Source: Saprospira grandis str. Lewin (GTDB lineage Bacteria > Bacteroidota > Bacteroidia > Chitinophagales > Saprospiraceae). Taken from it: DNA of 64,000 nucleotides. The translations under genes and the position numbers were made by a program. The DNA is taken from NCBI RefSeq assembly GCF_000250635.1, contig NC_016940.1, positions 3,472,501 to 3,536,500 of the forward strand. The letters are read 5' to 3'. A model generated the notes under the pieces. That model did no database searches, had not been told where the DNA came from, and saw nothing but the letters and a program-made list of their open reading frames with translations. Positions 13,219 through 56,421 of this stretch are shown piece by piece; positions within the stretch are counted from its first letter, which is position 1, and every line of letters starts with the position of its first letter.

Positions 13219-14698
13219 ATGGACAAGAAACAAGAAGAGTTATTAAACCGCCTACTAGGAGATGTGAAGAACATTGAGGAGCTAGACAAGCTAACAGATG
13301 ACCTCAAAAAACGAGGAATTCAAAGTTTGTTAGAAGGAGAAATGTCAGCGCATTTAGGGTATGCTCGTGGCGAAGAAGTCCAAGGAGAAAATCGCAGAAA
13401 TGGCCATTCTTCAAAGAAGATCAAGACGGAAAGTGGCAAATTACAAATAGAAATACCAAGAGATCGAGAGGGTAAATTTGACCCTGTAACGGTCCCCAAA
13501 CACAAGTCGATGACGGCTAAGCTAGAGAGTGTGATTACACTATTGTATGCTAAAGGTATGAGCCTGTCTGATATAGTAGAGTATATGGATGAAATTTATG
13601 GGCAGCAGTACTCTAAGAGTCAAATTACAACCATTACCAATAGCCTCTTAGATAGCATTCGAGAGTGGCAAAATCGGGTTCTTGATGAGAAGTATGCGAT
13701 TCTTTGGATTGATGGGATTCACTATAAAATTAGAGAGGATGGGCAGATTAAAAGAGACTGTTTAAAATTTTGTGTCTGCCCTTTTTGCTGCCTAGGGACA
13801 AGCCCCTAGGCTAGCTTTTTCAGACAGCCCTCTAAAGAGGGCCTTTGGATGAGGTCCTTCTCTGCGACAACAACTGAACAAGAGCTTGTATATCAACAGT
13901 TGAGGCCCTCGCAGAGGGTTGAACCCATTAGATTAGCCTAGGGGCTTGTCGCCTAGGCGATGATTGGCCAAATCCTAAGCAGCTAAGGCCCAAATTTTAT
14001 TCTAATACACAAAATCCCGAACAGTCCCGATTAAAAGCAAGGTTTGCATGATTGTACTTGGGGTTAATTTAGCAGGCTATCAAGACATTATTGGCATGTA
14101 TCTCTTTGAAAAAGAGACTGCTGCAAATTGGGCCACAACTTTGAATGACATTAAAACAAGAGGGGTAAAGGATATTTTATTTATCTGCTCAGACAATCTA
14201 GCTGGCTTGGACCAAAGCGTTGAGGCCGTCTTTCCTCAGGCAGCTCATCAAATTTGTGTGGTCCATCAAATTCGCAATTCTATGAAGGTTGTTGAAGCCT
14301 CTAATAGAAGAAAAGTGGCCAAAGATATTAAGCTCATTTATACAGCTCCTAATGAAGCTGAGGCCAGAAATCGGCTTCAAGATTTTGAAGAAAAATGGGG
14401 TGATCGCTATCCTTACATCATTAAATCTTGGGAGAAAAACTGGGACAATCTCACTGTCTTTTTATACTATCCTCAAGAAATCAGAAAGCTTATTTATACC
14501 ACAAATATTATTGAAGGCTTTAATGCTGGCCTGAGAAAATATACCAATAACAAACGCTCATTTCCAAATGATGCTGCGGCCATAAAATCTATCTATTTAG
14601 CCGCTATGCAAATTCAAAAACGATGGAAGGTCAAACGAGCTGGTTGGACCAAAGTTTTCAGCCAGCTTTGTGTCTGTTTCCCTGACCGGGTCATCTAA
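13219..14698 (+). pseudogene. IS256-family (mutator-type) transposase interrupted by MITE insertion
   Basis: The first 178 codons (to 13752) and the last 220 (from 14036) join in frame if the MITE and one copy of its 8-bp target duplication are removed, giving a 398-residue transposase. Across the junction the sequence becomes EDGQIK-SKVCMIVLGVN, as expected for the family. The DDE residues are visible: Asp in LWIDGIHYK, Asp in FICSDN, and Glu in TNIIEGFNA. As it stands the frame reads 18 residues into the MITE and stops at 13809, before the second Asp and the Glu, so it should be inactive. The intact reading frame elsewhere suggests a recent event. Confidence 0.93.
13754..14028 (+). mobile_element. 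275-bp MITE inserted in the IS256 transposase gene
   Basis: Flanked by an exact 8-bp duplication GATTAAAA at 13746-13753 and 14029-14036. Its ends (GAGACTGTTTAAAATTTTGTG and, reversed, GGGACTGTTCGGGATTTTGTG) match those of the host IS256 element, so the latter or a relative is the likely source of transposase. Inside are subterminal inverted repeats CCTAGGGACAAGCCCCTAGG / CCTAGGGGCTTGTCGCCTAGG and the palindrome GCCCTCTAAAGAGGGC. It has no coding capacity. Confidence 0.93.
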
Positions 14699-14865
14699 AT
14701 TTTACCACTCGCCTCCTAGTCTCTATTGACCAAATTTTATTCTGATACACAAAATCCTGAACAGTCCCCAGATAGCGGCGCAGCCGCCATGGCCGAAGGA
14801 CAAATAGCCCAACAAAACCTTTACGCCCTATTCTGCAGCTGCAAAACGGCATCCTACAGTTGCGC

Positions 14866-15580
14866 TAAGCTATTCGCAATTTGTGAAACGGCAATTGTAA
14901 AACGGGTTATGCTATTCGCAATTTGTGAAACGGCAATTGTAAAACGGGCTATGCTATTCGCAATTTGTGAAACGGCAATTGTAAAACGGGCTATGCTATT
15001 CGCAATTTGTGAAATGGCAATTGTAAAGCGGGGGATGCTATTCGCAATTTGTGAAATGGCAATTGTAAAGCGGGGGATGCTATTCGCAATTTGTGAAACG
15101 GCAATTGTAAAGCGGGGGATGCTATTCGCAATTTGTGAAATGGCAATTGTAAAGTGGGGGATGCTATTCGCAATTTGTGAAATGGCAATTGTAAAGCGGG
15201 GGATGCTATTCGCAATTTGTGAAATGGCAATTGTAAAGTGGGTTATGCTATTCGCAATTTGTGAAATGGCAATTGTAAAGCGGGGGATGCTATTCGCAAT
15301 TTGTGAAACGGCAATTGTAAAGTGGGGGATGCTATTCGCAATTTGTGAAATGGCAATTGTAAAGTGGGTTATGCTATTCGCAATTTGTGAAATGGCAATT
15401 GTAAAGTGGGGGATGCTATTCGCAATTTGTGAAACGGCAATTGTAAAGTGGGGGATGCTATTCGCAATTTGTGAAATGGCAATTGTAAAGTGGGGGATGC
15501 TATTCGCAATTTGTGAAATGGCAATTGTAAAGCGGGGGATGCTATTCGCAATTTGTGAAACGGCAATTGTAAAGCGGGGG
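14866..15580 (+). repeat. Tandem array, 17 copies of a 42-bp unit
   Basis: The unit reads ATGCTATTCGCAATTTGTG then AAACGGCAATTGTAAAACGGG plus two bases. The period is exactly 42, so frames stay open on both strands and give false ORFs (14-residue repeats such as MLFAICETAIVKRG). Variation is confined to a few positions (AAACGG/AAATGG, AAACGG/AAGCGG/AAGTGG, GCT/GGG/GTT). A degenerate half-unit precedes the array. No start signal or protein character supports translation. It ends exactly where an IS256-type terminus begins. Confidence 0.9.
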
Positions 15581-15581
15581 A

Positions 15582-15746
15582 GGGACTGTTCAGAATTTTG
15601 TGTATCCGAATAAAATTTTGAGAGGGACTGTTCAGGATTTTGTGTATTAGAATAAAATTTGGGCCTTTAGCTAGTTAGGATTTGGCCGATAGTCGCCTAG
15701 GGGCTTGTCCCTAGGCAGCAAAAAGGGCATACACAAAATTTTCTAC
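15582..15746 (-). mobile_element. Tandem IS256-type termini and a degenerate MITE
   Basis: Two termini sit head to tail. GGGACTGTTCAGAATTTTGTG at 15582 runs for about 40 bp, and GGGACTGTTCAGGATTTTGTG at 15624 starts a reverse-oriented MITE. This MITE is shortened to about 120 bp: it keeps GCCTAGGGGCTTGTCCCTAGGC, but its other end is degraded (ACACAAAATTTTCTACAG). No target duplication was found. Confidence 0.75.
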
Positions 15747-15980: not shown

Positions 15981-18716
15981 ATGGAATCTATCAACTTTGA
16001 TCAAATACAGATCTCTTCGGGCTGGACGCCCAGTAGCAAGGAGGAGCTAGAAAACCAATTGGACAACCTATTTAGTAGTAGTTTGGATGCTTTGCGAGGG
16101 ACCTGGGACCTGAGCAACTCGGCCAATGTCTTGCTGAGCCTTATCTTTTATAAGCGCCTGATTTGTCTACAAGAAGAAGGCGAATTGGCCTTCATTAAGA
16201 TTTCGGAAAAACAACGGCAGATCCTACACAATTTTAGGCAGCAGTTGGCCCAAAACAAACAGCAGGCCTTTGGCGATTTGCGAGATGCCCTGGTGGCGAT
16301 TTCTAGGGCCAACCCCTCTTTAGAAAATATTTTTGCCCCCCTAATGGTGGCCCTACAAGACAAGGCCGATGCCCAGCATCTGGCCCGAGTATTTGGCCTA
16401 TTGGAACAGGTCGATTTTTCGCTCAAGCAGTTTTCTATTGCGCAGTTTGGGGCCTTCTTTAATAAGAGCCTGAGCCGAGCGGCCCAAAGAAGGGGCAAGG
16501 CGGGCGGTAGCGCCACTACGCCGCTTTTTCTCAATAAACTCATGGCCCTTTTGCTCTCTCCCAAATCGGGAGAATCGGTCTATGAGCCTGCGGCGGGACA
16601 GGCCGCTAGCCTAGTGGCCCTTTTGCAAGAAGCCAGCTCCCTAAATATTTTGGCCCAAGAGGTCGATCAAATTACCTGGGCCTTTTGCAAAATGAATTTG
16701 CTCATGAATGGGGCCTATGAGGCCGTGGTGGAGCAAAATAATAGCCTGCTTCACCCGCCCCAACCCCCTCAGCAATTTGATCTGGCCCTGGCCAATTTCC
16801 CCTTTGGCGAAGAAATCGATCTGCGAGCCGTTAAGCATCGATCTTATGTCAAACTGCCCCTAGATGTGGGCCAAGAAGAGACCGATTGCAACAGCCTTTT
16901 TGTACAATTGATGTTGGAGCAACTCAATGAGAATGGGCGAATGATTGCCGTTTTGCCCATGCGGGCCCTCTTCAAAGAGCGGCAAGAGCGCCGTTTGCGA
17001 GAGTACTTGCTTCGCCGCGATGTGGTGGATGCCGTGATTACCCTGCCGCCTGGCCTGCTCTATGCCAGCCAAGCGCCCATTTGCCTGCTCTATTTGCACA
17101 AAAATAAGCCCGCCAAACGCAAGGGGAAAGTCCTTTTTATCAATGCTTCACAACTGCAACCCACCTCCAAGAGTCGGGTGCGCCATCGTTTGGAGAGTCA
17201 GCAAATTGCGGCCATCGTTTCGGCTTATCATAGCTGTGGAGAGAAAGTGCCGCAGGAGCTAGCCGGCTATGTGGTGAGCAAAACGGTAGAGCAACTGCTC
17301 GAGCAGCGGGCCAATCTGAATGCCAAGCGCTATGCGGCCCCCTTTATTCAGGAACTAGAGGCCTTGGCCGATCAAAATGCCTTGGTCAAGGTACAAGAAG
17401 TGATGGCGGGAGAGTTGCCAGCGCTTTGGGTGCATAAAAAAGAGCAGCAGTTTCATGAATACCCCTTTGTGAGTAGTCGAGATTTGGCCCTGCAGTTTGC
17501 CGATTATCAGTTGGCCCTGCCCAAACTTTGTCCCTTTGGCGAACAGGAGGAGGAAGAAGGGCGGATCTTGCAGCATTCGGCCTTTTTGGTCAATCGGAAA
17601 GGCAAGCGCTTGCGAGCCAGCTATTTTGAGTATACTGGCCAAGCCATTATTGTCAGCAAATCGGTGCTGGTTTTTGATTTGCAGCAAAAGAAGATCAACA
17701 AAGAATACTTTTTGGTCCAATTGCATCAAAAGCTGTTTTTGGCCCAGTTCAATATGTTTAGAACCGATCATGAAGCCTTGCAGATATCGGAGCGGGAATT
17801 TGGCCAATTGCAAATGCCTTTGCTCAGCCTAGAGGAGCAAATCAAATTGGTCCAAGAAACCAAATGGTCTTTGCTCAAAGAAGAAGAGCATAAGGTGGAA
17901 ACCCTGCGCAGCCGCCTCAATCTGGATAAGCAAACGGCCCAAAACCGACAAATGCGCATTATTTCCTCTTTGCAGCATGAACTAGGCAATCGTTTGCCCG
18001 CTATTTTGACCGAGCTCAAAAATATTAAGGACTTTCTAGGCGATAAAATTGAGGAGCAAACGCCCCTGAGCTGGAGCGATTCTATTTATCCCCTTTTTGA
18101 GGGCGAAGAAGCCGAAGAAGAGGACCAATTGGGTAAGGTGGTGCGCAAAATTGAGAAACAACTCATTTATACCATCAATAGCATTGATGCGGCTAGCAAC
18201 ATCATCTCGGCCGATAAGGAGCGCATGCAATTGGAACATCTATTGTTGCGCGACTTTTTAGAGGATTGGGCCCAACTTTATGCCCAAGAAAAACAGTTCT
18301 CTATCCAAATTGAGGTAGAAGACGATGAAAGAGGCCGAGAATTGCCCATTGCCACCCTCATCGACCGAGCACAACTGGCCACGGCCCTGAGCAATTTTGT
18401 AGAAAATGCCCGCCGCCATGGCTTTTCTAAGGATAAAAAACATCTGATCCGCTTTTCTGTTTCTTTGCTAGAGGAACAAGAAGAAGTATTGATAGAATAT
18501 AAAAATGATGGAAAAGCTTTCCCAAATTCTTTTACCTTTGAGGATTTTGTCTCCTACGGCAATTATGCCGGCGATACTGGACATTCGGGTATCGGGGGCT
18601 ACCTCATCCACCAAATTATTGAGAATCATGAGGGCAGCCTATACTATAAGGAGCAAATAGATAAACGCGACCCCTTTAAGGTGCAATTTGATATTATTTT
18701 GCCCTACAGAAAATAA
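15981..18716 (+). CDS. N6-adenine-methyltransferase-like domain fused to a histidine kinase
   Basis: A 911-residue soluble protein. Residues about 20-420 resemble HsdM of type I restriction systems: a helical N-terminal part, a SAM-site region YEPAAGQ (201-207, versus DPxxGTG) and a catalytic-loop region ANFPF (271-275, versus NPPF). Both key motifs deviate, so methylation is doubtful while DNA or SAM binding may remain. Residues about 420-620 are a linker of unclear fold. From about 640 comes a two-component kinase: H-box SLQHELGNRL with His666, N-box NFVENARRHG with Asn809, and G-box GDTGHSGIGG (864-873). No transmembrane segment or PAS domain is seen, so the methylase-like part is the probable sensor. 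A receiver-domain gene follows four bases after the stop. Nothing like a restriction subunit is adjacent. The domain calls are good; the biological role is inference. Confidence 0.85.
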   Translation: MESINFDQIQISSGWTPSSKEELENQLDNLFSSSLDALRGTWDLSNSANVLLSLIFYKRLICLQEEGELAFIKISEKQRQILHNFRQQLAQNKQQAFGDLRDALVAISRANPSLENIFAPLMVALQDKADAQHLARVFGLLEQVDFSLKQFSIAQFGAFFNKSLSRAAQRRGKAGGSATTPLFLNKLMALLLSPKSGESVYEPAAGQAASLVALLQEASSLNILAQEVDQITWAFCKMNLLMNGAYEAVVEQNNSLLHPPQPPQQFDLALANFPFGEEIDLRAVKHRSYVKLPLDVGQEETDCNSLFVQLMLEQLNENGRMIAVLPMRALFKERQERRLREYLLRRDVVDAVITLPPGLLYASQAPICLLYLHKNKPAKRKGKVLFINASQLQPTSKSRVRHRLESQQIAAIVSAYHSCGEKVPQELAGYVVSKTVEQLLEQRANLNAKRYAAPFIQELEALADQNALVKVQEVMAGELPALWVHKKEQQFHEYPFVSSRDLALQFADYQLALPKLCPFGEQEEEEGRILQHSAFLVNRKGKRLRASYFEYTGQAIIVSKSVLVFDLQQKKINKEYFLVQLHQKLFLAQFNMFRTDHEALQISEREFGQLQMPLLSLEEQIKLVQETKWSLLKEEEHKVETLRSRLNLDKQTAQNRQMRIISSLQHELGNRLPAILTELKNIKDFLGDKIEEQTPLSWSDSIYPLFEGEEAEEEDQLGKVVRKIEKQLIYTINSIDAASNIISADKERMQLEHLLLRDFLEDWAQLYAQEKQFSIQIEVEDDERGRELPIATLIDRAQLATALSNFVENARRHGFSKDKKHLIRFSVSLLEEQEEVLIEYKNDGKAFPNSFTFEDFVSYGNYAGDTGHSGIGGYLIHQIIENHEGSLYYKEQIDKRDPFKVQFDIILPYRK

Positions 18717-18720
18717 GAAT

Positions 18721-19665
18721 ATGAGTAAAAAACGCCGCCGACCAATACAGGTTTTAATGATTGATGACGATCAACAATTTGCTAGCCCCTTTATTAAGCG
18801 GGCCCGCAAGTATCAGGTCCTCATTACCAACAAAACAAACTTGCAAGAGGGCCTACACGAGCTACAAAATAACAGTAAATATCAGGCTGTTATTCTAGAT
18901 GGCAAGGCGCCTATTCATCCACAACAAGCCAAAGGAACCGAGGCTGAAAACTTTGTGCATGAGGCCATTATGCGCCTCCGAGAGATGGAGCTGCGCCAAG
19001 AACGCCCCCTGCCTTTTTGCGTGCATACGGCCTGGAAAGTGCAGCTAGAGCCTAGCCTGCGCCAAAGGGCCGCCCTATTCGACAAAAAGAAAACGGCCGT
19101 AGATGAAGACGAAATGCAAGCCCTTTTTGAGTTTCTGCATCAGGAGGTGGGCCAACTAGAAAATAGCAAAATCAAACAGCAGTATCCCGAGGTCTTTGAC
19201 TTTGCCGACCGCTATCTGGACCAAGAAGATGTTTCGCTCTTGCTCAGCATCTTAGCCGATAAATCAATGGCTAAAAGAGAGCAAATGCTGGAGCGACTGG
19301 CCTTTGTCCGCCGCCTAGAAGAGTCTATTCTCAACGTCTTTTGCCGAGAGGCCCTCAAGGTCGATCCGCTGCTATATGGAATGGATGGACAAAGCCGAAC
19401 CAAAGACCTGATCGAGCTCATTAAGGTCCGAAAACTGGCCCCTATGCACGTCTCTTTTCTGACCTATATCATTTATGCCACCCTCAGCAGTATTGTGCAG
19501 CATAAAGCCCCAGAATCTAGTGAGTATTACAATTATCCGATCACGCCTTATACCGTCAAAACCTTTATCAATGGGCTTTTAGACATTATTCTCTGGGTAA
19601 AGGATAGTATCGAAAATGGCTTGAGAGAAGGCAGTATTATGCACGATTTTCAACCCCCTCGATAA
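18721..19665 (+). CDS. Response-regulator-like protein with unknown C-terminal domain
   Basis: The start chosen is MSKKRRRPIQ, four bases after the upstream kinase stop; an ATG at 18688 lies inside that gene and adds residues atypical of the family. The N-terminal receiver domain shows the acidic cluster Asp15-Asp16-Asp17 after VLMI, the probable phospho-acceptor Asp60 in AVILDGK, a Thr in FCVHTAWK and a Lys in ALFDKKKT. The remaining 190 or so residues are helical and match no output domain I know: no helix-turn-helix, GGDEF or HD motif is visible. The output may be protein-protein interaction or an unrecognised effector. It probably receives phosphate from His666 of the methylase-kinase. 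An IS copy begins 51 bp downstream. Confidence 0.8.
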   Translation: MSKKRRRPIQVLMIDDDQQFASPFIKRARKYQVLITNKTNLQEGLHELQNNSKYQAVILDGKAPIHPQQAKGTEAENFVHEAIMRLREMELRQERPLPFCVHTAWKVQLEPSLRQRAALFDKKKTAVDEDEMQALFEFLHQEVGQLENSKIKQQYPEVFDFADRYLDQEDVSLLLSILADKSMAKREQMLERLAFVRRLEESILNVFCREALKVDPLLYGMDGQSRTKDLIELIKVRKLAPMHVSFLTYIIYATLSSIVQHKAPESSEYYNYPITPYTVKTFINGLLDIILWVKDSIENGLREGSIMHDFQPPR

Positions 19666-19715: not shown

Positions 19716-21273
19716 CTTGGGTTGACCCACTTTTAAAAATAAGCTTAAATTAGCTCTAAATCAAGATTTATATGGACAGTACAAATGTATCTTCATTTAT
19801 GTTAAATAAGCAATCAGTAAGAGTATGTTATAGATTAGTAGAGAGTCTAAAAAATAATCCTAACCCACATTTAACAAATGTAGCAAAAACTGATGCAGAC
19901 CGTAAGGCTTTCATGAGGTTGTTATCAAACAAAAATCTTACTGAGGAATACATTCAATTTGAGTTTATTGGCAAAAGTAGGGAGTCTATGAAGGTGGTTG
20001 AAGAAAAGCTTCTGGCCTTTCACGACACCTCTGAAGTTGTACTGAACAAGCAAAGAAATAGACTAACCGACAAAGAGGGTTTAGGCCCTGGAGGTCGGGA
20101 AACAAATTTGTCTGTATTTCTTCACATGGCTCTACTATATGGTCGAGAAAGCTTTCATTATCATGGCTTAGGAGGTATTCAGCTTTATAATCGATATAAA
20201 AATAGAGTAACTTGTAAGGAGGCTGAAAATAGAAATACGGGTCATTTTAGAGGTGAAATTACGAGGTGGAAAATAAATGTAGAAGAGACAGAATCTGCGT
20301 TAAAAATAATTAACGACCTAATTGATATTTTACATGTTTGTGATCGAGAAGGAGATGTTTATCCTATGATGGAAAGTTTTTTCAGACAGCATATTAAGTT
20401 CTTGATTCGGTCTCGAACAGATAGACGAGCAACGATTTGGGAGGATGGCAAAAAGATTCCATTATGTGATGTCTTTGAACATTATCCAGCAGACTTTGAG
20501 ACGACAGAAACGGTCAAGAGTAGCCGTAAAAAACTTAACGGGAAGAAGCTAGTTATTCGATCTAAAAAAGTGACTTTTGCCGTTCCCAAATCTTGTAAGT
20601 ATGTTCTTGGCGAACCAAAGCCTAAGTCAATGACAATCAATGTTATTGAGGTTTTTGAAAAGGGCAAAGGTTTTTCAAAATCTGCCGCTAGAAAAAGAAG
20701 CCGAACAAAAAAAGATCATGATGATAAAACCATCAGTTGGCGCTTACTCACAAATGAAGAAATCAACAGCGAAGAAGAGCTCTTAGAGCTTGTTCTTTGC
20801 TACCGCAAGAGGTGGTTAATTGAAACATACTTTAAATATTTAAAATCAGATGGCTTTGATATTGAAAATATATGTTTGAAAACAGGTAAAGCTATCCGCA
20901 AAATGATACTTATGGCAATCAGTGCATCTGACAAGGTCCTTAAGCTTAAAGAAGCTGGACTTAACCAAGATAATGAGACTCCAGCAACCTCTATTTTCAC
21001 AGAAGATGAAGTAGAAGTCTTAGATCTTATATTTAAACAATATCTAAAAGGCGAAAGCCAAAGCCCTTCTTTGCGCAATCCATTCACCTCTAAATCAATA
21101 GCTTGGGCCTATTGGATCATAGCGAGGTTGGGCGGATTTAATGGCGCAGTGAAGAAAACTAGGCATGCCGTATCCGTCAAAAAAATAGGACTAGGATTAG
21201 AGAGATTCATATTTATGTATGATGGATATCGATCCCTAAATTGACACCGCTATAAAAAGTGGGTCAACCCAAG
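19716..21273 (+). mobile_element. IS4-family, Tn5/IS50-like insertion sequence (1,558 bp)
   Basis: Perfect terminal inverted repeats CTTGGGTTGACCCACTTTT at both ends and an exact 9-bp target duplication GTTGCAGGG (19707-19715 and 21274-21282). Nine bases is the duplication length known for IS50/Tn5. Intact ends and duplication suggest a recent, probably functional copy. Confidence 0.93.
19772..21244 (+). CDS. IS4-family transposase, Tn5-like
   Basis: 490 residues, the only gene of the IS. The DDE core is visible: the region around HVCDREGDVYPM holds the second Asp, and the YREK signature appears as CYRKRWLIETYFKYLK with the catalytic Glu. The C-terminal GGFNGAVKK...GLGLERF resembles the end of Tn5 transposase (GGF...GLQRL). 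The first Asp is probably in the NTGHFRGEITRW region or nearby and could not be fixed by eye. The AT-rich codon use contrasts with the flanking GC-rich repeat. The frame is intact. Confidence 0.92.
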   Translation: MDSTNVSSFMLNKQSVRVCYRLVESLKNNPNPHLTNVAKTDADRKAFMRLLSNKNLTEEYIQFEFIGKSRESMKVVEEKLLAFHDTSEVVLNKQRNRLTDKEGLGPGGRETNLSVFLHMALLYGRESFHYHGLGGIQLYNRYKNRVTCKEAENRNTGHFRGEITRWKINVEETESALKIINDLIDILHVCDREGDVYPMMESFFRQHIKFLIRSRTDRRATIWEDGKKIPLCDVFEHYPADFETTETVKSSRKKLNGKKLVIRSKKVTFAVPKSCKYVLGEPKPKSMTINVIEVFEKGKGFSKSAARKRSRTKKDHDDKTISWRLLTNEEINSEEELLELVLCYRKRWLIETYFKYLKSDGFDIENICLKTGKAIRKMILMAISASDKVLKLKEAGLNQDNETPATSIFTEDEVEVLDLIFKQYLKGESQSPSLRNPFTSKSIAWAYWIIARLGGFNGAVKKTRHAVSVKKIGLGLERFIFMYDGYRSLN

Positions 21274-48563: not shown

Positions 48564-48672
48564 AAAACATAAAAAAAAATATTAGATTCTAGATAGGCTG
48601 GACAAAAGTCAGTTTTATTTGTAGTTCTTGATACATTTTAATTATTTTCAGGGCAGAACAAAACAGACAAAC

Positions 48673-51600
48673 ATGAGTAATTTCCACTTCCTCAAAAAGG
48701 AATGGCCCCAGCTCTATACCCAAGCAAGAGAGGCCGAAAAACACCTATTAACCGCTCCTCGGACGGCTGCTTTTTATAGCCGATTGACTTTAGAATTAAC
48801 GGTTTATTGGCTTTATGACCATGATGAAGATTTGGGTCAGCGCTATGCCGATGAAACCCTTTTTGGTCTTTTGCAAAAGCCCAGTTTTAAGCAAATGCTG
48901 CGGCCTTCTATGCAGCGGGACCTCGATTATATTCGCAAAATTGGCAATGCGGCTGCCCATAGCGCCCAGGCGGTCAGTGGAGAAGAGGCCAAAGAAGCCC
49001 TAAAAAATGTTTTTCGCTTTATGAATTGGCTGGCCCGAAGTTATTCGGCCAATGAAGCTATGCCCATTCACAGCTGGTCCGATGAGCATTTGCCCCTAGG
49101 CGGAAGCGCCCAAAAGGAACTGAGCCGAAAGGAATTGGCCAAACTAGAAAAAAGCTTTGAGGAGAAACAAAAAACTATCCTCAAGGAGCTCGAGCGGCTC
49201 AAGAAAATTGAGGAGGAAAACCAGCGATTAAAAGAAGAAAACGCACAGTTTAAGGCGCAAAAAGAACGCAACCGCGCCAATATGCTGAAAAAAGGCGAGG
49301 AACCTGGTCTAGCTCCAGAAGTGCGGACCGAAAAAGAAAGTCGCGAACTCTATATTAACCAGATGCTGCGAGAAGCGGGCTGGAATCTCAAGGACCATCG
49401 ACAAGTTGTTGAAGAATATACCATTCATGAGATGTATCCTGGCCGTAAGGGCTATGCCGATTATGTATTCTTTGATGAAAAAGGATTGCCCCTAGCTATT
49501 CTCGAAGCCAAATCCATTACGAAAGACCCCGAAAAAGGGAAGGAGCAGGCCAAACTATATGCCGATGCCCTAGAACGAAATACAGGCCGTCGTCCCATTA
49601 TCTTTTTGAGTAATGGCCTCGAAACCACAATCATCGACGATCAATTTTATAAGGCCGAACGCCGAATTTTGGGCTTTTATAGCCGAGAAGAGCTAGAGAG
49701 TCTACACTATAAGCACAAAAACAGAAAAGCCATTGAAAGGGTAGGGCCCGACCCCCAGATTGCGGGCCGCCCCTACCAAATGCAGGCCGTGCTCAGTGTG
49801 AACCAAGCCCTAGAAAACCGAGAGCGGGCGGTGCTTTTATCTATGGCCACAGGTAGTGGAAAAACCCGTACGGCTGCCGCTTTAGCTAAGGTCCTTTTTG
49901 AAAATAACTGGGCCAAACGGATCCTCTTTTTAGCCGACCGCCGCACTTTAGTCAAACAAGCCCAGCATGCCTTTAAAGATCATCTAGAAAACTACAGCAG
50001 CATTAGCCTGCTCGATAAAAAGGAAGAAGGGGAGGAGCATGCCCGCTTGGTTTTTTCGACTTATCCCACTATGCTCAATTATCTGAATAGAACAGAGGAG
50101 CGAAAATTTGGCATTGCCCAATTTGATTTTATTGTGGTGGATGAGGCCCACCGTTCGGTCTATAAAAAGTACAAGGCCATCTTTGATTATTTTGATGCAA
50201 TTTTAATTGGTCTAACGGCTACGCCCCAAGATCAGGTAGATCGCGATACCTATCAACTCTTTCATTGTCCAAAGAATAATCCCACCTTTGAGTATCCGCT
50301 TCAAGAGGCCGTAGCGGCCAATTATCTGGTTCCGCCCATCATTATAGATGGTAGCACTCAAATTACTACAGAAGGGGTGCATTATAAGGACCTCAGTCCC
50401 GCCGAAAAAGAAGAGTATGAAGATAGTTTCATGAATGAAGAAGAGGAGGAAATGCCCGAATCTATCGCCAATAGCGAGCTAGATGTTCGACTCTTTAATG
50501 CCCCCACAGCCGATAAAATCCTCCATCTCTTGATGGAAAAGGGCCTCAAGGTAGAGCAAGGCGATAAACTGGGGAAAACTATCATCTTTGCCAAAAATAT
50601 TAAGCATGCTAAGTTTCTCAAAAAGCGCTTTGATTTGCTTTTTCCGGCTCAGGCCGACTTAGCCGAAACCATTTATGGCAGTAAGGACCATGTAGAATCG
50701 CTTTACGATCGTTTTAAAGACCCCAGACAGCTTCCCCAAATTGCCATTTCGGTAGATATGCTCGATACGGGGGTAGATGTGCCCGAAATTGTCAATCTGG
50801 TCTTCTACAAAAAGGTCCGTTCTCATGCCAAGTTTTGGCAGATGCTGGGGAGGGGAACTCGTTTATCTCCCGACCTCTTTGGTCCCGGCCAAGACAAAAC
50901 CTTCTTTTACATCTTTGATGTTTGCGATAATGTGAGCTTCTTCGAAGAGAGTTTTGAGAAGGGCCAAGGCAGCCGCAGCCCCTCTATGGAGGAGCGGGCC
51001 TATAAGCTTAAACTAGAAATTGCCCAAGCTCTCAATCATCTAGATTATCAGGATGATGAACGCTTTTTGGCCCATCAAAAGGCCCTAAGAGATGAGGCCT
51101 GGCAGGCCCTCATGGCCCTAGACCAACACCAAATTGAGGTCAAAGCCATTTATCCGCTCTACAAAAAGTATGAGCAGCGCAGCCGCTGGGATCAGCTCAA
51201 CAGAAAAGATCTGAAGGAGATTGTCGAAGAATTGGCCCCTATTGCCGCGCAGGTAGATCAGGATAGCGATCTAGGCGCTCGCCGCCTTGATCAAATGATT
51301 TGGCAACTGCAATTGCTTTTCCTGAAAAATAAAGACCGAAGCAAAAAGGCCAACCGCCTGCGCGAAAGCCTCGATCTGCTGGCCCAAAAAGGCAATATCA
51401 AACAGATTCGAGAAAAAGCGCCACTCATCAAACAGTTGCGCCAGCTCGGCGCTATTGAGGCCCTCGATTTTTGGGGCCTAGAGGAGGCCCGCCTAGAACT
51501 GCGGGAACTGCTCCGCTTGCTCGATAAAAAGCAAAAACAAGCCATTTATAGCCATTTTGCCGATGAGCTGACTGGAGCCGAAGATAGAGAAATGCAAGGC

Positions 51601-52071
51601 TATGGCGGCTACTCCGAGCCCTATAAACAACGACTCTACCGCCTACTGACCGAAAATAAGGAGCAGCTTTATCTACAAAAGCTGCATAGCAATCAGCCCC
51701 TAACCCTAGCCGAGGTAGAAGCCCTAGAACGCTTTATCCTCGAGCAAACCCAGGGCAAAAAAGAAGAGCTGCAAGCCGAACAAGGCGAGCTCTCTTTGGG
51801 CCGATTTATCCGCTCGATTATTGGGCTAGACCCCGCCGCCGTCCAAAGCACTTTTGCCGATTATCTGCAAGAACAAAAATGGAATGCCCAACAACTGGCC
51901 TTGGTCCAATTGATTGTGCAGCATTTTGTAACCAATGGCTATTTGCAACCCGAAGATATTACGGGCGAGCCCTTCAATCGCCATGGCAATTTGGTCGACC
52001 TCTTCGGTGGGCATGTTAAAGGCCTAGTAGAGCTGATTAAAGCCATAAATAAGAATACGGAGCCAGCTTAG
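48673..52071 (+). CDS. hsdR: Type I restriction enzyme, R subunit
   Basis: Motor and nuclease subunit of a type I restriction-modification complex. The start MSNFHFLKKEWPQL gives 1,132 residues; an ATG 15 codons upstream is less likely. Order: DUF4145-like helical domain (about 1-130), coiled coil (140-215, ERLKKIEEENQRLKEENAQ), HsdR-type PD-(D/E)XK nuclease (YADYVFFDE...ILEAKS with Glu278 and Lys280), SF2 helicase with Walker A ATGSGKT (Lys397) and DEAH (490-493), then LTATPQD and MLGRGTRLSP. The C-terminal part is the EcoEI-type assembly domain. hsdM starts 1.5 kb downstream, across repeat arrays and a transposase. The frame is intact. Confidence 0.95.
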   Translation: MSNFHFLKKEWPQLYTQAREAEKHLLTAPRTAAFYSRLTLELTVYWLYDHDEDLGQRYADETLFGLLQKPSFKQMLRPSMQRDLDYIRKIGNAAAHSAQAVSGEEAKEALKNVFRFMNWLARSYSANEAMPIHSWSDEHLPLGGSAQKELSRKELAKLEKSFEEKQKTILKELERLKKIEEENQRLKEENAQFKAQKERNRANMLKKGEEPGLAPEVRTEKESRELYINQMLREAGWNLKDHRQVVEEYTIHEMYPGRKGYADYVFFDEKGLPLAILEAKSITKDPEKGKEQAKLYADALERNTGRRPIIFLSNGLETTIIDDQFYKAERRILGFYSREELESLHYKHKNRKAIERVGPDPQIAGRPYQMQAVLSVNQALENRERAVLLSMATGSGKTRTAAALAKVLFENNWAKRILFLADRRTLVKQAQHAFKDHLENYSSISLLDKKEEGEEHARLVFSTYPTMLNYLNRTEERKFGIAQFDFIVVDEAHRSVYKKYKAIFDYFDAILIGLTATPQDQVDRDTYQLFHCPKNNPTFEYPLQEAVAANYLVPPIIIDGSTQITTEGVHYKDLSPAEKEEYEDSFMNEEEEEMPESIANSELDVRLFNAPTADKILHLLMEKGLKVEQGDKLGKTIIFAKNIKHAKFLKKRFDLLFPAQADLAETIYGSKDHVESLYDRFKDPRQLPQIAISVDMLDTGVDVPEIVNLVFYKKVRSHAKFWQMLGRGTRLSPDLFGPGQDKTFFYIFDVCDNVSFFEESFEKGQGSRSPSMEERAYKLKLEIAQALNHLDYQDDERFLAHQKALRDEAWQALMALDQHQIEVKAIYPLYKKYEQRSRWDQLNRKDLKEIVEELAPIAAQVDQDSDLGARRLDQMIWQLQLLFLKNKDRSKKANRLRESLDLLAQKGNIKQIREKAPLIKQLRQLGAIEALDFWGLEEARLELRELLRLLDKKQKQAIYSHFADELTGAEDREMQGYGGYSEPYKQRLYRLLTENKEQLYLQKLHSNQPLTLAEVEALERFILEQTQGKKEELQAEQGELSLGRFIRSIIGLDPAAVQSTFADYLQEQKWNAQQLALVQLIVQHFVTNGYLQPEDITGEPFNRHGNLVDLFGGHVKGLVELIKAINKNTEPA

Positions 52072-52088
52072 CGGGAAATCGTCCCCCT

Positions 52089-52643
52089 TTCGACGCCTAG
52101 GGACAAGCCCCCCTTTCTGCGCCTAGGGACAAGCCCCTAGGCTACCTTTTCAGACAGCCCTCTAAAGAGGGCCTTTGGATGCAGCTCTCTTCGCTACAAT
52201 GATTTAGCAAGGAAATACAAACAATTGAGGCCCTTTAGGGCTGACTCCATTGGATTAGCCTAGGGGCTTGTCCCTAGGCGACTAGCTGCGGCCTTTGGAT
52301 GCAGCTCTCTTCGCTACAATGATTTAGCAAGGAAATACAAACAATAGAGGCCCTTTAGGGCTGACTTCATTGGATTAGCCTAGGGGCTTGTCCCTAGGCG
52401 ACTAGCTGCGGCCTTTGGATGCAGCCCCTCTTCGCTATAATGACTTAGCAAGGAAATACAAACAATTGAGGCCCTTTAGGGCTGACTTCATTGGACTAGC
52501 CTAGGGGCTTGTCCCTAGGCGACTACCTACAGCCTTTGGATGCAGCTCTCTTCGCTACAATGATTTAGCAAGGAAATACAAACAATTGAGGCTCTTTAGG
52601 GCTGACTCCATTGGATTAGCCTAGGGGCTTGTCCCTAGATGAC
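52089..52643 (+). repeat. Array of four MITE-core units (120-bp period)
   Basis: GCCTTTGGATGCAGC(T/C) recurs at 52171, 52291, 52411 and 52532. Units carry TAGCCTAGGGGCTTGTCCCTAGG and a reverse-facing CCTAGGGACAAGCCCCTAGG at the left edge, plus GAGGCCCTTTAGGGCTGAC. These are the internal segment of the 275-bp MITE at 13754, but the IS256-type termini are missing, so the copies arose by tandem amplification rather than by transposition. Confidence 0.9.
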
Positions 52644-52653
52644 TATCGGCAGT

Positions 52654-53082
52654 TCATCTTACACCATATCGACTTTTTAAAAGCTTTAGTTCTAATTCAA
52701 AATCTCTTGTCTCATGATGTTTCTTTTGATTGAGAATGTAGTTTACCAATAGATTGATATTTTTGGGGTCTACAGAAAAAGCAGCATATCCTGCCTGCCA
52801 ATAAAAATTAGCTACAAATAAAGGCTCTCCTTTTATCCAATAACTAGACTTTGATTTTAATGTTTCTAGATATGCGCTAAGAGCTATTTGCTTAGATAAA
52901 TTACACAAAATATGAAGGTGGTCAACACTGCCTCCTATTGCTAAAATAGGAGAATCCATATCTTTACTTAACGCAATTATTTTTTGATGTAAAAAAAGCT
53001 CGATTTCTGGCAAAATCCATGGCTGCCTATATTTAGTTGTAAATATAATGTGGATGTAATTCTTCACTAATGATTGTCCCAT
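52654..53082 (-). CDS. IS200-like tyrosine (Y1) transposase, possibly RAYT type
   Basis: 142 residues. The HUH metal site appears as DHLHILCNL (about residues 54-62), and the probable catalytic Tyr is in LLVNYILNQKKHHE (about 113-126); WQAGYAAFSVDP is another family segment. It is a stand-alone transposase with no accessory tnpB and no clear IS ends. Such solitary copies are often RAYTs that mobilise palindromic REP elements. It is flanked on both sides by MITE-core arrays and lies within the hsd locus, opposite to it. The frame is intact. Confidence 0.9.
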   Translation of the reverse strand: MGQSLVKNYIHIIFTTKYRQPWILPEIELFLHQKIIALSKDMDSPILAIGGSVDHLHILCNLSKQIALSAYLETLKSKSSYWIKGEPLFVANFYWQAGYAAFSVDPKNINLLVNYILNQKKHHETRDFELELKLLKSRYGVR

Positions 53083-53220
53083 GAAATTGTTGTTTAAAGT
53101 ATAGCAACTAGCTAGTTAGCAAGTATTTACTTAGCCTCAATATAGGTAACTTACAGATAAAACTATTTTAATAAACAAATTTTTAACGAAAGATGTATTG
53201 GGAATGTCTCTAGGCGATTA

Positions 53221-53522
53221 TGGCCTCCCCCTTTCTGCGCCTAGGGACAAGCCCCTAGGCTACCTTTTCAGACAGCCCTCTAAAGAGGGCCTTTGGATGC
53301 AGCTCTCTTCGCTACAATGATTTAGCAAGGAAATACAAACAATAGAGGCCCTTTAGGGCTGACTCCATTGGATTAGCCTAGGGGCTTGTCCCTAGGCGAC
53401 TACCTACAGCCTTTGGATGCAGCTCTCTTCGCTACAATGATTTAGCAAGGAAATACAAACAATAGAGGCCCTTTAGGGCTGACTCCATTGGATTAGCCTA
53501 GGGGCTTGTCCCTAGGCGACTA
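53221..53522 (+). repeat. Array of two MITE-core units (120-bp period)
   Basis: Units at 53289 and 53409 are nearly identical to those at 52089-52643, with the same left edge CTGCGCCTAGGGACAAGCCCC. The similarity on both sides of the transposase makes a large direct repeat of about 300 bp. The T-less stretch CCCCCCCACAAAAACCCCCC follows before hsdM. Confidence 0.9.
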
Positions 53523-53605
53523 GCTGCCCCCCCACAAAAACCCCCCAACAAAAAAAACATCCCAACAAAAAACTTCCTATATTTCCCCCTCACAAAAATA
53601 GCTTT

Positions 53606-55111
53606 ATGATTACTGGAGAATTACGCAACGATATAGATAAAATTTGGAATTACTTCTGGTCGGGTGGGGTGACCAACCCCGTGACCGTGATCGAGCAACT
53701 GACTTACCTGATGTTTTTGCAGGAACTCGATAACCGCCAAAATGCACAAGACCAACTGGCCGCCCTCTTTGGCGAAGGCTATGAGAAAAAGGTCTTTTTT
53801 GAAGAGGATCAAGAAAGCCTCCGCTGGTCCAACCTCAAGGAGATGACCCCAGAAGCCCGCTTCGAAAAGATGCGCGATGAGGTTTTTCCCTTTATGCGAG
53901 AAGAACTCTCTCAAGGAAAGTCTAAGGAGAATGTCTCGATTTTTGCCCGATATATGCAAAATGCTAGCTTCATGATCCCCTCCGCTAAGTTGCTGGATCA
54001 GGTGGTGTTGGCCCTTTCTTCGGTCAATTATAAGGACTCAGATACCAAGGGTGACCTCTATGAATATCTCTTGTCTAAACTCTCTTCGGCTGGGAAAAAT
54101 GGGCAGTTCCGCACGCCCCGACATATCATCCGCCTGATGGTGGATATGATGCAACCCAATGTACAAGATACCATTTGCGACCCCTCGGCGGGTACTGCGG
54201 GCTTTTTGGTGGAGGCCGCCGATTATGTCCGCAAAAACCATCAAGAGGCCTTGGTCAAAAGCGAAAACCAGGCGCATTTCCGCAGCAAGATGTTCTCGGC
54301 CCTAGAGTTTGACCCCACTATGGTCCGTGTGGGCGCCATGAACCTTTTTGTGCACGGCATCGAGCAGCCTTTGTTGCGCGATATCAATGCGCTTTCGCCC
54401 CGAAATGCCGACCTAGAAGAGAGTTGCTCGCTCATCCTCGCCAATCCGCCTTTTAAGGGGACGGTGGACAAGGATGATTTGGATGAGGAACTGACGAAGG
54501 TAGTCAAAACAAAGAAGTCGGAGTTGCTCTTTTTGGCCCAAATTCTTCGCCTACTCAAAAATGGCGGTAGAGCGGCGGTCATTATCCCCGATGGCGTCCT
54601 CTTTGGCAGCAGCAAGGCCCATAAGGAAATCCGCAAGCAGTTGGTGGAAAATCAGGAGCTACAGGCCGTTATTTCTATGCCTTCGGGCGTTTTCAAACCC
54701 TATGCGGGGGTCAGCACGGCCATCCTAATTTTTACCAAAACCAATGCGGGCGGCACCGATAAGGTCTGGTTCTACGATATGCAGGCCGATGGCTTTTCGC
54801 TAGATGATAAGCGGCAGTTTTTGGGCAAAGAGGGCCAAGCCCAGAGCCATGAAGAGAATAACCTGCCCGATATTTTGCAACGCTGGGCCAAGCTGGAAGA
54901 GGAGGACAACCGCAGCCGTACCGATCAGTCCTTTATGGTGCCCCTTGCTGAGCTACAAGAAAATGATTATGATCTCTCGATCAACCGCTATAAGGAGATT
55001 CAGTATGAGGCGGTGGCCTATGATCCGCCCCAAGAGATTATCCAAAAGATTCAGCAGGATTTACAAAGCAGCCTAAAAGAACTTTCTGATTTGCAGCAGC
55101 TTTTAGATTAG
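53606..55111 (+). CDS. hsdM: Type I restriction-modification system, M subunit
   Basis: N6-adenine methyltransferase subunit; with HsdS it makes the host-protecting methylase. 501 residues. The N-terminal HsdM_N helices (about 1-130) precede the catalytic domain: motif I DPSAGTAGFL (192-201) binds SAM and NPPF (280-283) is the active-site loop. GRAAVIIPDGVLFGS is also typical. Unlike the methylase-like gene at 15981, all motifs are canonical, so this one should be active. hsdS begins 215 bp later, beyond GCE copy 17. Confidence 0.97.
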   Translation: MITGELRNDIDKIWNYFWSGGVTNPVTVIEQLTYLMFLQELDNRQNAQDQLAALFGEGYEKKVFFEEDQESLRWSNLKEMTPEARFEKMRDEVFPFMREELSQGKSKENVSIFARYMQNASFMIPSAKLLDQVVLALSSVNYKDSDTKGDLYEYLLSKLSSAGKNGQFRTPRHIIRLMVDMMQPNVQDTICDPSAGTAGFLVEAADYVRKNHQEALVKSENQAHFRSKMFSALEFDPTMVRVGAMNLFVHGIEQPLLRDINALSPRNADLEESCSLILANPPFKGTVDKDDLDEELTKVVKTKKSELLFLAQILRLLKNGGRAAVIIPDGVLFGSSKAHKEIRKQLVENQELQAVISMPSGVFKPYAGVSTAILIFTKTNAGGTDKVWFYDMQADGFSLDDKRQFLGKEGQAQSHEENNLPDILQRWAKLEEEDNRSRTDQSFMVPLAELQENDYDLSINRYKEIQYEAVAYDPPQEIIQKIQQDLQSSLKELSDLQQLLD

Positions 55112-55119
55112 TTTTTTTT

Positions 55120-55249
55120 GGGGCCCGCGGCCGCCCTTCAATTTGGGGCGGCCGCCGCTATGCTGCGGGGCTCGCAGGTCTGCTCGGCCCTGCGGCGGCT
55201 TCGCCGCCTGGGTCTGGCCTGACGGCCACCCGCTCCGCAGCGCTGGGCC
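55120..55249 (+). repeat. GC-rich intergenic element, GCE copy 17
   Basis: Sits between hsdM and hsdS, starting eight T after the hsdM stop. GGGGCCCGCGGCCG variant with insert GCGGCCGCCCTTCAATTTGGGGCGGCCGC and right end CAGCGCTGGGCC. Confidence 0.88.
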
Positions 55250-55326
55250 AACGGCCCTGTCGGGCCCAAGGGGGCTGCGCCCCCTTGCTGCTGAGGCCCA
55301 ATTGTTTAGCCAAATAAATCAAAGAA

Positions 55327-56421
55327 ATGAAGAAGAGAGATTGGAAAAAGGTAAAGCTGGGGGATTTAATGCTGAAGCGAAATAAGTCTGTAAATCCTGC
55401 AAAGTTTAAAGAGGAGTTTTTTGAGCTATATAGTATACCCGCTTATTCCACAGAACAAGCTGAAATAATCCAGGGCAGTAGCATAGGTTCGTCCAAAAAA
55501 ACTGTAGAGGAAGATGATGTATTACTGTCTCGTATTGTTCCACATATACAGCGTTGTTGGATTGTACCTGAGAAAAAAGAGTTAAGACAAATTGCTTCTG
55601 GAGAATGGATAGTTTTTAGATCAGAAAAGGTGCTTTCAAATTATTTGCGCTTCTTTCTACTATCAAAGCCATTTCATAAAAGGTTTATGGGAACTGTAAG
55701 AGGTGTAGGAGGCTCTTTAATGAGGGCAGACCCTAAACAAGTTGCAGATTTCCAAATCCCCCTTCCCCCCTTAGCAGAGCAAAAGGCCATAGCGGCCCAG
55801 CTCGATCGGGCGGATAAGCTACGGCAGGCCTTGGCCCAAAGCCTAGCGGATTATGATCGTTTGCTGGCGGCCAGCTTTCTGGATATGTTTGGGGATCCTG
55901 TGCTCAATCCTAAGGGCTGGGAGGTTGTGAAGTTTACAGATGTAGTTGTTTTAAAGAGGGGGTTTGATTTACCATTGAAGTCTCGTATAAAAGGTAAATA
56001 TCCTATTATAGCATCTAATGGTCCTTTAGATTACCATAATGAATACAAAGTTAAGGGGCCTGGTGTTGTTACTGGACGTTCTGGTACGATAGGAAATGTA
56101 TTTTATATTGAGGATGATTACTGGCCTCTTAACACTTCACTGTATGCAGAGGATTTAAGAGGGAATAATCCAATATACTTATACTTTTTATTACAGTTTT
56201 TTAGATTAGATCGCTTTAAAAGAGGGTCTGGAGTTCCAACACTTAATAGAAATCTTGTTCATCGAGAAAATTTATTTAATGTTCCACTCTCTTTACAGCA
56301 GCAATTTGCGCAATTGGTAGAGCGGATAGAGCGGCAAAAGGCGCTCATTCAGTCGGCCCAGCAATCGGCGGAGGATTTATTTGGGGCCTTATTGCAGGCC
56401 TACTTTTATGAGGGAAAATAG
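55327..56421 (+). CDS. hsdS: Type I restriction-modification system, specificity subunit
   Basis: 364 residues, near the lower end for the family. Two target-recognition domains (about 1-140 and 195-320), each followed by a conserved coiled-coil spacer: PLPPLAEQKAIAAQLDRADKLRQAL (about 138-165) and VPLSLQQQFAQLVERIERQKALIQ (about 315-340). Each domain would read half of the bipartite DNA site. The recognition domains are AT-rich while the spacers use GC-rich codons like hsdM, a mosaic expected if recognition domains were swapped in. Its target sequence cannot be predicted from sequence. Confidence 0.93.
   Translation: MKKRDWKKVKLGDLMLKRNKSVNPAKFKEEFFELYSIPAYSTEQAEIIQGSSIGSSKKTVEEDDVLLSRIVPHIQRCWIVPEKKELRQIASGEWIVFRSEKVLSNYLRFFLLSKPFHKRFMGTVRGVGGSLMRADPKQVADFQIPLPPLAEQKAIAAQLDRADKLRQALAQSLADYDRLLAASFLDMFGDPVLNPKGWEVVKFTDVVVLKRGFDLPLKSRIKGKYPIIASNGPLDYHNEYKVKGPGVVTGRSGTIGNVFYIEDDYWPLNTSLYAEDLRGNNPIYLYFLLQFFRLDRFKRGSGVPTLNRNLVHRENLFNVPLSLQQQFAQLVERIERQKALIQSAQQSAEDLFGALLQAYFYEGK

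Follow-up and report, generated by a model that had tools for sequence, protein, structure and literature searches.

The window analysed here, a stretch of 64,000 nucleotides from the 4.4-Mb genome of Saprospira grandis str. Lewin, carries on its forward strand two adjacent genes that encode a predicted two-component signalling pair. The first gene (15981..18716, ATG start) encodes a fusion protein of 911 amino acids (aa), in which an HsdM-like part, an HsdS-like half and a histidine kinase were delineated with Pfam, PADLOC, AlphaFold2 and Foldseek. The second gene (18721..19665), which starts with ATG four bases after the fusion gene, encodes a 314-aa response regulator delineated by homologue alignment, AlphaFold2 and Foldseek. 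Judged from sequence comparison, the pair is on balance likely to be a two-component immune switch, the sensor of which is derived from a type I restriction-modification (R-M) enzyme.

The N-terminal region of the fusion contains a helical domain with weak similarity to HsdM_N (aa 35-141, 16083..16403; PF12161, E 0.0016, below the cut-off), followed by a pseudo-methyltransferase domain (aa 155-454, 16443..17342; PF02384 N6_Mtase, E 2.6e-50) in which motif comparison identified EPAAGQA as motif I and NFPF, not NPPF, as motif IV. The HsdM-like methylase/histidine-kinase fusion proposed in an earlier, sequence-only reading of this DNA was thus confirmed together with its methyltransferase fold, and the methylase profile was detected in 47 of 50 fusions. 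Foldseek searches with the AlphaFold2 model of the fusion returned PacII M1M2S (7e-24), other HsdM proteins, M.TaqI and CamA, as well as the kinase HK853 (2e-11). An HsdS-type target-recognition domain (TRD) half, which the sequence-only reading had missed, lies behind the methylase (about aa 487-625, 17439..17855) and was matched by the PADLOC Specificity_I profile at aa 518-662 (5.2e-9) and aa 487-648 (5.1e-6). Both the TRD and the conserved helix of HsdS are present in the window fusion, and the TRD profile was detected in 49/50 fusions; the chain carries one half, not the two TRDs of HsdS, according to PADLOC and the model. A single predicted helix (aa 617-692, 17829..18056; local predicted local distance difference test (pLDDT) about 67-89) leads from the HsdS conserved helix into the kinase dimerisation helix, and appears in the model to run unbroken from the HsdS 'SLEEQ' motif past His666. 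The model, built from nine sequences, has a pLDDT of 77 and a predicted template modelling score (pTM) of 0.59, at which the placement of the domains relative to each other is uncertain. When a profile (A5) built from the C-terminal parts of 18 relatives was run against the PDB, it matched sensor kinases (3a0r_A at 1.7e-18, positions 139-334; HK853 at about 4e-14, positions 75-324) and also type I S subunits (about 4e-13 for both 5ybb_D and 3okg_A, positions 27-89; also 1yf2_A), indicating that two families meet on one helix.

The C-terminal HATPase_c domain (aa 795-897, 18363..18671; PF02518, E 3.5e-9) and the phospho-acceptor His666 (17976..17978) provide the histidine of the dimerisation and histidine phosphotransfer (DHp) helix, the N box and the G2 box of a histidine kinase. 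His666, Asn809, Asn842, Gly844, Gly870 and Gly872 are each invariant in 50/50 fusions, and His813 is found in 49/50, so that the phospho-acceptor, N-box and G-box residues named in the earlier reading hold in these fusions. The methylase motifs, in contrast, are mostly lost. When motif IV was scored as (N/D/S)PP(F/Y/W) in 50 fusions and 25 HsdM proteins, it was retained in 8/50 fusions versus 25/25 HsdM, and motifs I and IV were both standard in 2/50 fusions (L033 and L143) versus 21/25 HsdM, the remaining four HsdM deviating from the motif I pattern at the final position alone. Because the catalytic motif is mostly lost, the methylase-like part of the fusion is probably a sensor and not a methylase. 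The altered motifs are not random, since NPFAG recurs in many R-M-linked fusions and the fusions of the Saprospira/Aureispira clade mostly combine DPxxGQG with (H/N)FPF, which suggests that the pocket has been kept without catalysis. The fusion of locus L054 matched neither the methylase nor the TRD profile, and L153 and L144 gave no methylase match, although L144 does show BLAST similarity to HsdM.

The open reading frame (ORF) list had placed the receiver start at an upstream TTG (18688), whereas homologues align from the ATG at 18721. No significant Pfam match was obtained for the window receiver protein, yet its AlphaFold2 model (pLDDT 85, pTM 0.69) shows a receiver fold (aa 9-144, 18745..19152) with D15, D16, D60, T103 and K122, and Foldseek found PorX, FixJ, PmrA and similar receivers as best matches, none of which identified the output domain; a receiver protein with an unrecognised output, as had been claimed, is therefore what the second gene encodes. 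The phospho-acceptor Asp60 (18898..18900) and Lys122 are invariant in the 45 receivers aligned, in which position 15 is Asp in 41 and Glu in 4, position 16 is Asp in 43 and Asn in 2, and position 103 is Thr in 36 and Ser in 9, giving a response-regulator signature. The output domain (aa 147-300, 19159..19620) is predicted to be all-helical, with R197, E201, H261 and W292 conserved. As regards a helix-turn-helix (HTH) DNA-binding output, 20 receiver members gave no convincing Pfam match for the output domain, one member having AlbA_2 instead, and a profile of the domain gave nothing below E 0.45 against the PDB. Receivers longer than 370 aa numbered 13 among those examined, and 12 of their C-terminal extensions, when aligned, were weakly cold-shock/OB-like (E 0.043). 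A HEPN-like identity of the output domain was considered and was supported by no tool, and weak matches of the receiver to SduA (0.0015) and ProA (0.0092) were judged to be due to chance. The receiver with the Schlafen AlbA_2 domain (L056:2438-3385) is positioned between its fusion and McrBC.

Whole-genome searches were drawn from Bacteroidota, in samples that overlap. Receiver matches were found in 8/60 relatives, at 18 loci of a genome contig collection (six being genomes of the 60-relative set), in 12/395 phylum genomes, 31/396 order genomes (23 at E <= 1e-30), 16/395 class genomes (two weak) and 9/244 genomes of another class (one weak). The kinase profile at E <= 1e-30 selected exactly the 23/396 order genomes selected by the receiver, and the two genes are adjacent in 17 of these and apart in six, lying about 734 kb apart in G706, 738 kb in G778 and about 17 kb in G025; G757, G763 and G783 have them on separate contigs. 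Weak receiver-only matches (3e-11 to 1e-6; eight order genomes, two class genomes and G1138) were left out of the family, and G345 (6.7e-8) was kept because a fusion adjoins its receiver (L056). Nine genomes (L012/L021 plus eight others) had seemed to hold orphan receivers, an idea abandoned when 8/9 proved to carry a full-length fusion at another place, detected with the kinase profile. G458, a genome that may be incomplete, has no fusion of comparable strength (best 4.8e-15). The window receiver had no relative in viral contigs and phages, and its plasmid matches were three records, all of one Myroides plasmid type. The adjacent pair thus recurs across Bacteroidota and the fusion is not a one-off. 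This recurrence, together with a ratio of nonsynonymous to synonymous substitution rates (dN/dS) of 0.02-0.06 in every domain between the window and two congeners, makes the pair more than a chance arrangement. In one locus (L150:843-3997) the fusion is broken into several frames beside a receiver that looks intact, and a WYL gene lies close by.

Neighbouring genes were compared in 42 linked loci, with L150, L146 and L155 (the latter two at contig ends) and all unlinked loci left out; labels come partly from Pfam or annotation and otherwise from BLAST similarity to genes annotated there. A downstream hsdM on the same strand was found in 22/42 linked loci, a count that was not set against a chance expectation, and it follows the receiver directly in 20, after one intervening gene in L170 and after two in L171. 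Labels for hsdM plus hsdS were obtained in 19 of the 42 and for hsdR in 14. Pfam confirmed an hsdM-hsdS-hsdR operon in L047, and hsdM-hsdS with two GmrSD proteins and the start of hsdR in L048 and L050. R-M genes lie upstream of the pair in L049, L151 and L152, McrBC lies nearby in L056 and, by BLAST, behind hsdM-hsdS in L169, and AAA_15, PLD-like, radical-SAM and UvrD genes neighbour the pair in L046. A WYL gene within two genes upstream, on either strand, is present in 19/42. The Myroides odoratimimus plasmid pFM-G13 has the order WYL, 'N-6 DNA methylase', 'hypothetical protein', HsdM, HsdS, hypothetical, PLD-like and HsdR, so that current annotation hides the pair behind its second and third names. 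In L054:605-12188 (G123), a type III CRISPR operon with Cas10/Csm1 and Csm4 domains, RAMPs and Cas6 includes a 763-aa kinase, the sensor of which was not recognised, and a family receiver, both placed between the RAMP genes and a CARF/Csx1-like gene; the Pfam scores there are below cut-offs (HATPase_c 18.6 bits, Csx1 21.4), and the family kinase profile matches at 4e-17. The link to defence that had been suggested for the pair is therefore upheld in relatives, by the loci preceding hsdM and by others near McrBC, type III CRISPR or AAA/UvrD genes. For the window copy, the clade of which has no restriction neighbours in the stretches examined, a defence role may be extrapolated from these relatives. 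Two further arrangements were observed: a 1674-aa TmtA-like protein (1166.9 bits, PADLOC) upstream of the pair in L139:871-5895, and, behind the most methylase-like fusion (DPACGSG, NPPY; L033:11191-20416), a 1084-aa protein without a Pfam match and a 1994-aa protein.

The fusion resembles the HsdM2S enzymes EcoKI, EcoR124I and PacII M1M2S in its HsdM fold, TRD, conserved coiled-coil helix and M-then-S order. In contrast to them, it has M and half of S in one chain, has a mostly lost catalytic motif and carries a histidine kinase in the position of the second S half. It shares the H, N and G2 boxes and the DHp helix with HisKA/HATPase_c kinases such as ThkA, HK853 and VicK, whereas its sensor is R-M-enzyme-like and not of the PAS, HAMP or periplasmic type and the G1 Asp is replaced by Asn in 50/50. 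The MAD2 methyltransferase profile of MADS scored 27.3 bits on the fusion versus a curated cut-off of 720, and mad2-/mad5-like similarity within the fused domains was the only MADS-type similarity seen. Detocs, a three-gene system with an ATP-cleaving effector that is not known to have an R-M-derived sensor, brings phosphorelay logic to phage defence. Neither window protein has a Detocs-type nucleosidase domain, and the next gene encodes a transposase. CapK/CapS is likewise a kinase-substrate pair ahead of diverse immune operons, in which an ssDNA-activated HTH-STAS-GHKL kinase targets a serine of a STAS-wHTH repressor, but neither a methylase nor a receiver is mentioned in the available part of that paper (PMC13373217). 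No STAS domain was matched in either window protein at E <= 1 with Pfam. PpoS/PpoR is a histidine kinase and response regulator controlling CRISPR-Cas expression; as far as the available text describes it, it differs in being of BarA/UvrY type with a LuxR-type DNA-binding output, and its regulator gene lies beside uvrC, outside the immune operon (PMC8523701). Receiver domains also occur within immune loci in Cam2 and type I-B CoCoNuT, of which Cam2 is said to have no associated histidine kinase and CoCoNuT has no partner kinase named in the portions available (PMC11229360, PMC11090510). The BrxR/CapW WYL regulators lie near type I R-M, comparable to the WYL genes here, but are transcription regulators, and no kinase term occurs in the accessible part of the source (PMC9122601). 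No description of an R-M enzyme as signal input to a phosphorelay, or of a system with this layout, was found in open full-text papers, the extent of the search, in agreement with the sequence-only reading, which knew of no such system. If the proposal is true, a phospho-switch can be part of R-M systems, which are generally regarded as enzymes that work on their own, and loci of type I R-M, McrBC and type III CRISPR share related kinase/receiver pairs. Moreover, the old question of how a cell senses an encounter with its restriction barrier, or a breach of it, becomes accessible to testing.

A possible mechanism, covering the dimer, the ligand, the phosphotransfer, the output and the control of the operon, is proposed for the pair. 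The sensor of this cytoplasmic two-component system may be a converted type I R-M clamp made of M and half of S. Two fusion chains could pair through the HsdS-type coiled coil, which would extend into the dimerisation helices of the kinase. When DNA, a DNA-like protein or a cofactor occupies the clamp, this may alter the coiled coil and switch autophosphorylation of His666; candidate ligands are DNA at a fixed site, DNA mimics with anti-restriction activity, and S-adenosylmethionine (SAM) or S-adenosylhomocysteine. Next, the phosphate could pass from His666 to Asp60 of the receiver, and the all-helical output, in some relatives together with the OB-like domain, may act on a protein or nucleic-acid partner by a route other than a classical HTH. 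In many relatives the pair would control the immune operon that follows (type I R-M, GmrSD, McrBC), and in Saprospira it would be a free-standing copy kept at one place.

Several findings weigh against an immune switch. A co-directional downstream hsdM is missing in 20/42 linked loci, and no immune operon follows the window copy. In the kinase tree, which carries a long-branch warning for L054, L144, L154 and others, the window fusion falls in a clade of 13 fusions (support 100/100), five linked (the window, L009, L010, L172 and L011) and eight unlinked, and no hsdM-like gene lies beside any of them in the stretches examined. The nine linked loci sharing the order of the window had been taken as one lineage, a grouping dropped because the tree places L013, L014, L015 and L031 elsewhere; that the nine are not a clade lowered confidence in the preferred explanation. 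The co-occurrence counts are non-independent, as many rows are close kin and some of the counted genomes supplied profiles. The G1-box Asp is Asn842 in 50/50 fusions, and ATP binding is assumed. Across 22 loci, distances of kinase and HsdM (rho 0.15, p 0.026) and of receiver and HsdM (rho 0.17, p 0.016) show small, nominally significant correlations. Asn at the G1-box Asp position also occurs in AgrC-type kinases.

The strongest alternative, less than an even chance and still a serious contender, is that the window copy and its Saprospira/Aureispira clade have a housekeeping role in gene regulation or cell physiology and that the defence link belongs to other branches. Besides the clade without hsdM-like neighbours, it would account for the same placement in four Saprospira loci, where downstream ORFs match in size and order (the collection includes the same-genus genome Saprospira grandis DSM 2844), for the strong purifying selection, and for the eight clade genomes in which kinase and receiver are separated and both kept. 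However, a type I R-M system lies about 30 kb from the pair in the window, its HsdM sharing 52% identity with the linked HsdM of L051 and 48% with that of L052, and the sensor half is still the faster-evolving one (35-47% versus 54-60% for the kinase half).

An unlikely alternative, though not a negligible one, is that the receiver itself is a killing effector, for example with an RNase-like helical domain, and the pair a self-contained abortive-infection unit. The all-helical output with its conserved R197, E201, H261 and W292, the loci without an adjacent effector gene and the Schlafen/AlbA_2 variant are compatible with such a role, but the helical domain has no significant match to a known RNase or toxin family, the receiver is retained where it is unlinked, and the conserved residues form no recognised catalytic motif.

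How the sensor has changed relative to the linked R-M system bears on its ligand. Close locus pairs with both HsdS genes numbered only three, and the HsdS halves were delimited by the analysts. In L147/L148 the fusion TRD is 96% and HsdM 94% identical versus 31 and 23% for the HsdS halves; the corresponding values are 79, 96, 41 and 31% in L048/L169 and 86, 90, 37 and 33% in L051/L168. The most diverged fusion part in L048/L169 and L051/L168 is the pseudo-methylase (55 and 67% identity versus 95 and 88% for the kinase; dS 1.35 and 1.48 versus 0.17 and 0.93), and L147/L148 shows no such hotspot (98% identity). The HsdM proteins of L053 and L147 are 91% identical and their fusions only 34%, and the dS of the cassette in L147/L148 is 0.05-0.09 versus 0.55 for HsdM, which indicates that the cassette and hsdM have been exchanged separately. 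Across the 22 loci, distances correlate within the pair (kinase-receiver rho 0.50, receiver-sensor 0.56, kinase-sensor 0.37), and HsdM-sensor co-divergence is nil (rho 0.04, p 0.31).

Phage anti-restriction proteins include DNA mimics such as Ocr or ArdA and SAM-destroying enzymes. The fusion might conceivably be a guard, a catalytically dead methylase look-alike that serves as bait for such proteins, although this is rather improbable. A phage disarming the type I enzyme would also occupy or empty the look-alike clamp, the coiled coil would trip the kinase, and the receiver would launch back-up weapons of the same operons, such as GmrSD, McrBC and PLD-like proteins. Such a function would explain why the methylase is dead but structurally kept, why the TRD does not follow R-M specificity, and why, in two of the three close pairs, the pseudo-methylase changes faster than the rest of the fusion.

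The proposal that the fusion reads methylation of the site of its own linked R-M system, switching on when that site is unmethylated, is improbable to a high degree. The sensor is indeed assembled from parts of HsdM and HsdS, and hsdM-hsdS often follows it, but the fusion TRD did not track R-M specificity in 3/3 pairs (79-96% identity versus 23-41% for HsdS halves), the nil HsdM-sensor co-divergence argues in the same direction, and with one TRD per chain a dimer would need a palindromic site; the suggestion in the sequence-only reading that the methylation state is sensed is thus not supported for the site of a neighbouring R-M system. Co-specificity of the fusion and the linked HsdS was also set aside, as direct comparison gave weak, scattered similarity and the swap test was contrary. 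Least probable of all is a still active methyltransferase with kinase activity regulated by turnover, for which the fold is intact (PacII M1M2S) and motif I partly retained, as EPAAGQA in the window and DPxxGQG in sister genomes, but motif IV is lost in 42/50 fusions, including NFPF in the window, and both motifs are standard in 2/50.

The surroundings of the pair in the window contain mobile and repetitive elements. A DDE transposase (19772-21244) directly follows the receiver gene, whose counterparts in G735 (same species), G001 and G002 have no ORF of that size behind them. Just upstream of the fusion gene lies a repeated-unit ORF (14726-15613; FAICEMAIVKRGML-like), the repeats of which are open on both strands, preceded by a Mutator-family transposase in two separate frames that is apparently broken (13219-14698). 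The type I R-M system at 48628-56421 comprises hsdR with DUF4145, hsdM and hsdS, hsdR and hsdM being separated by an IS200-type transposase, and the whole genome gave seven N6_Mtase matches, the fusion included. A 526-aa leucine-rich-repeat protein is encoded at 61748-63328.

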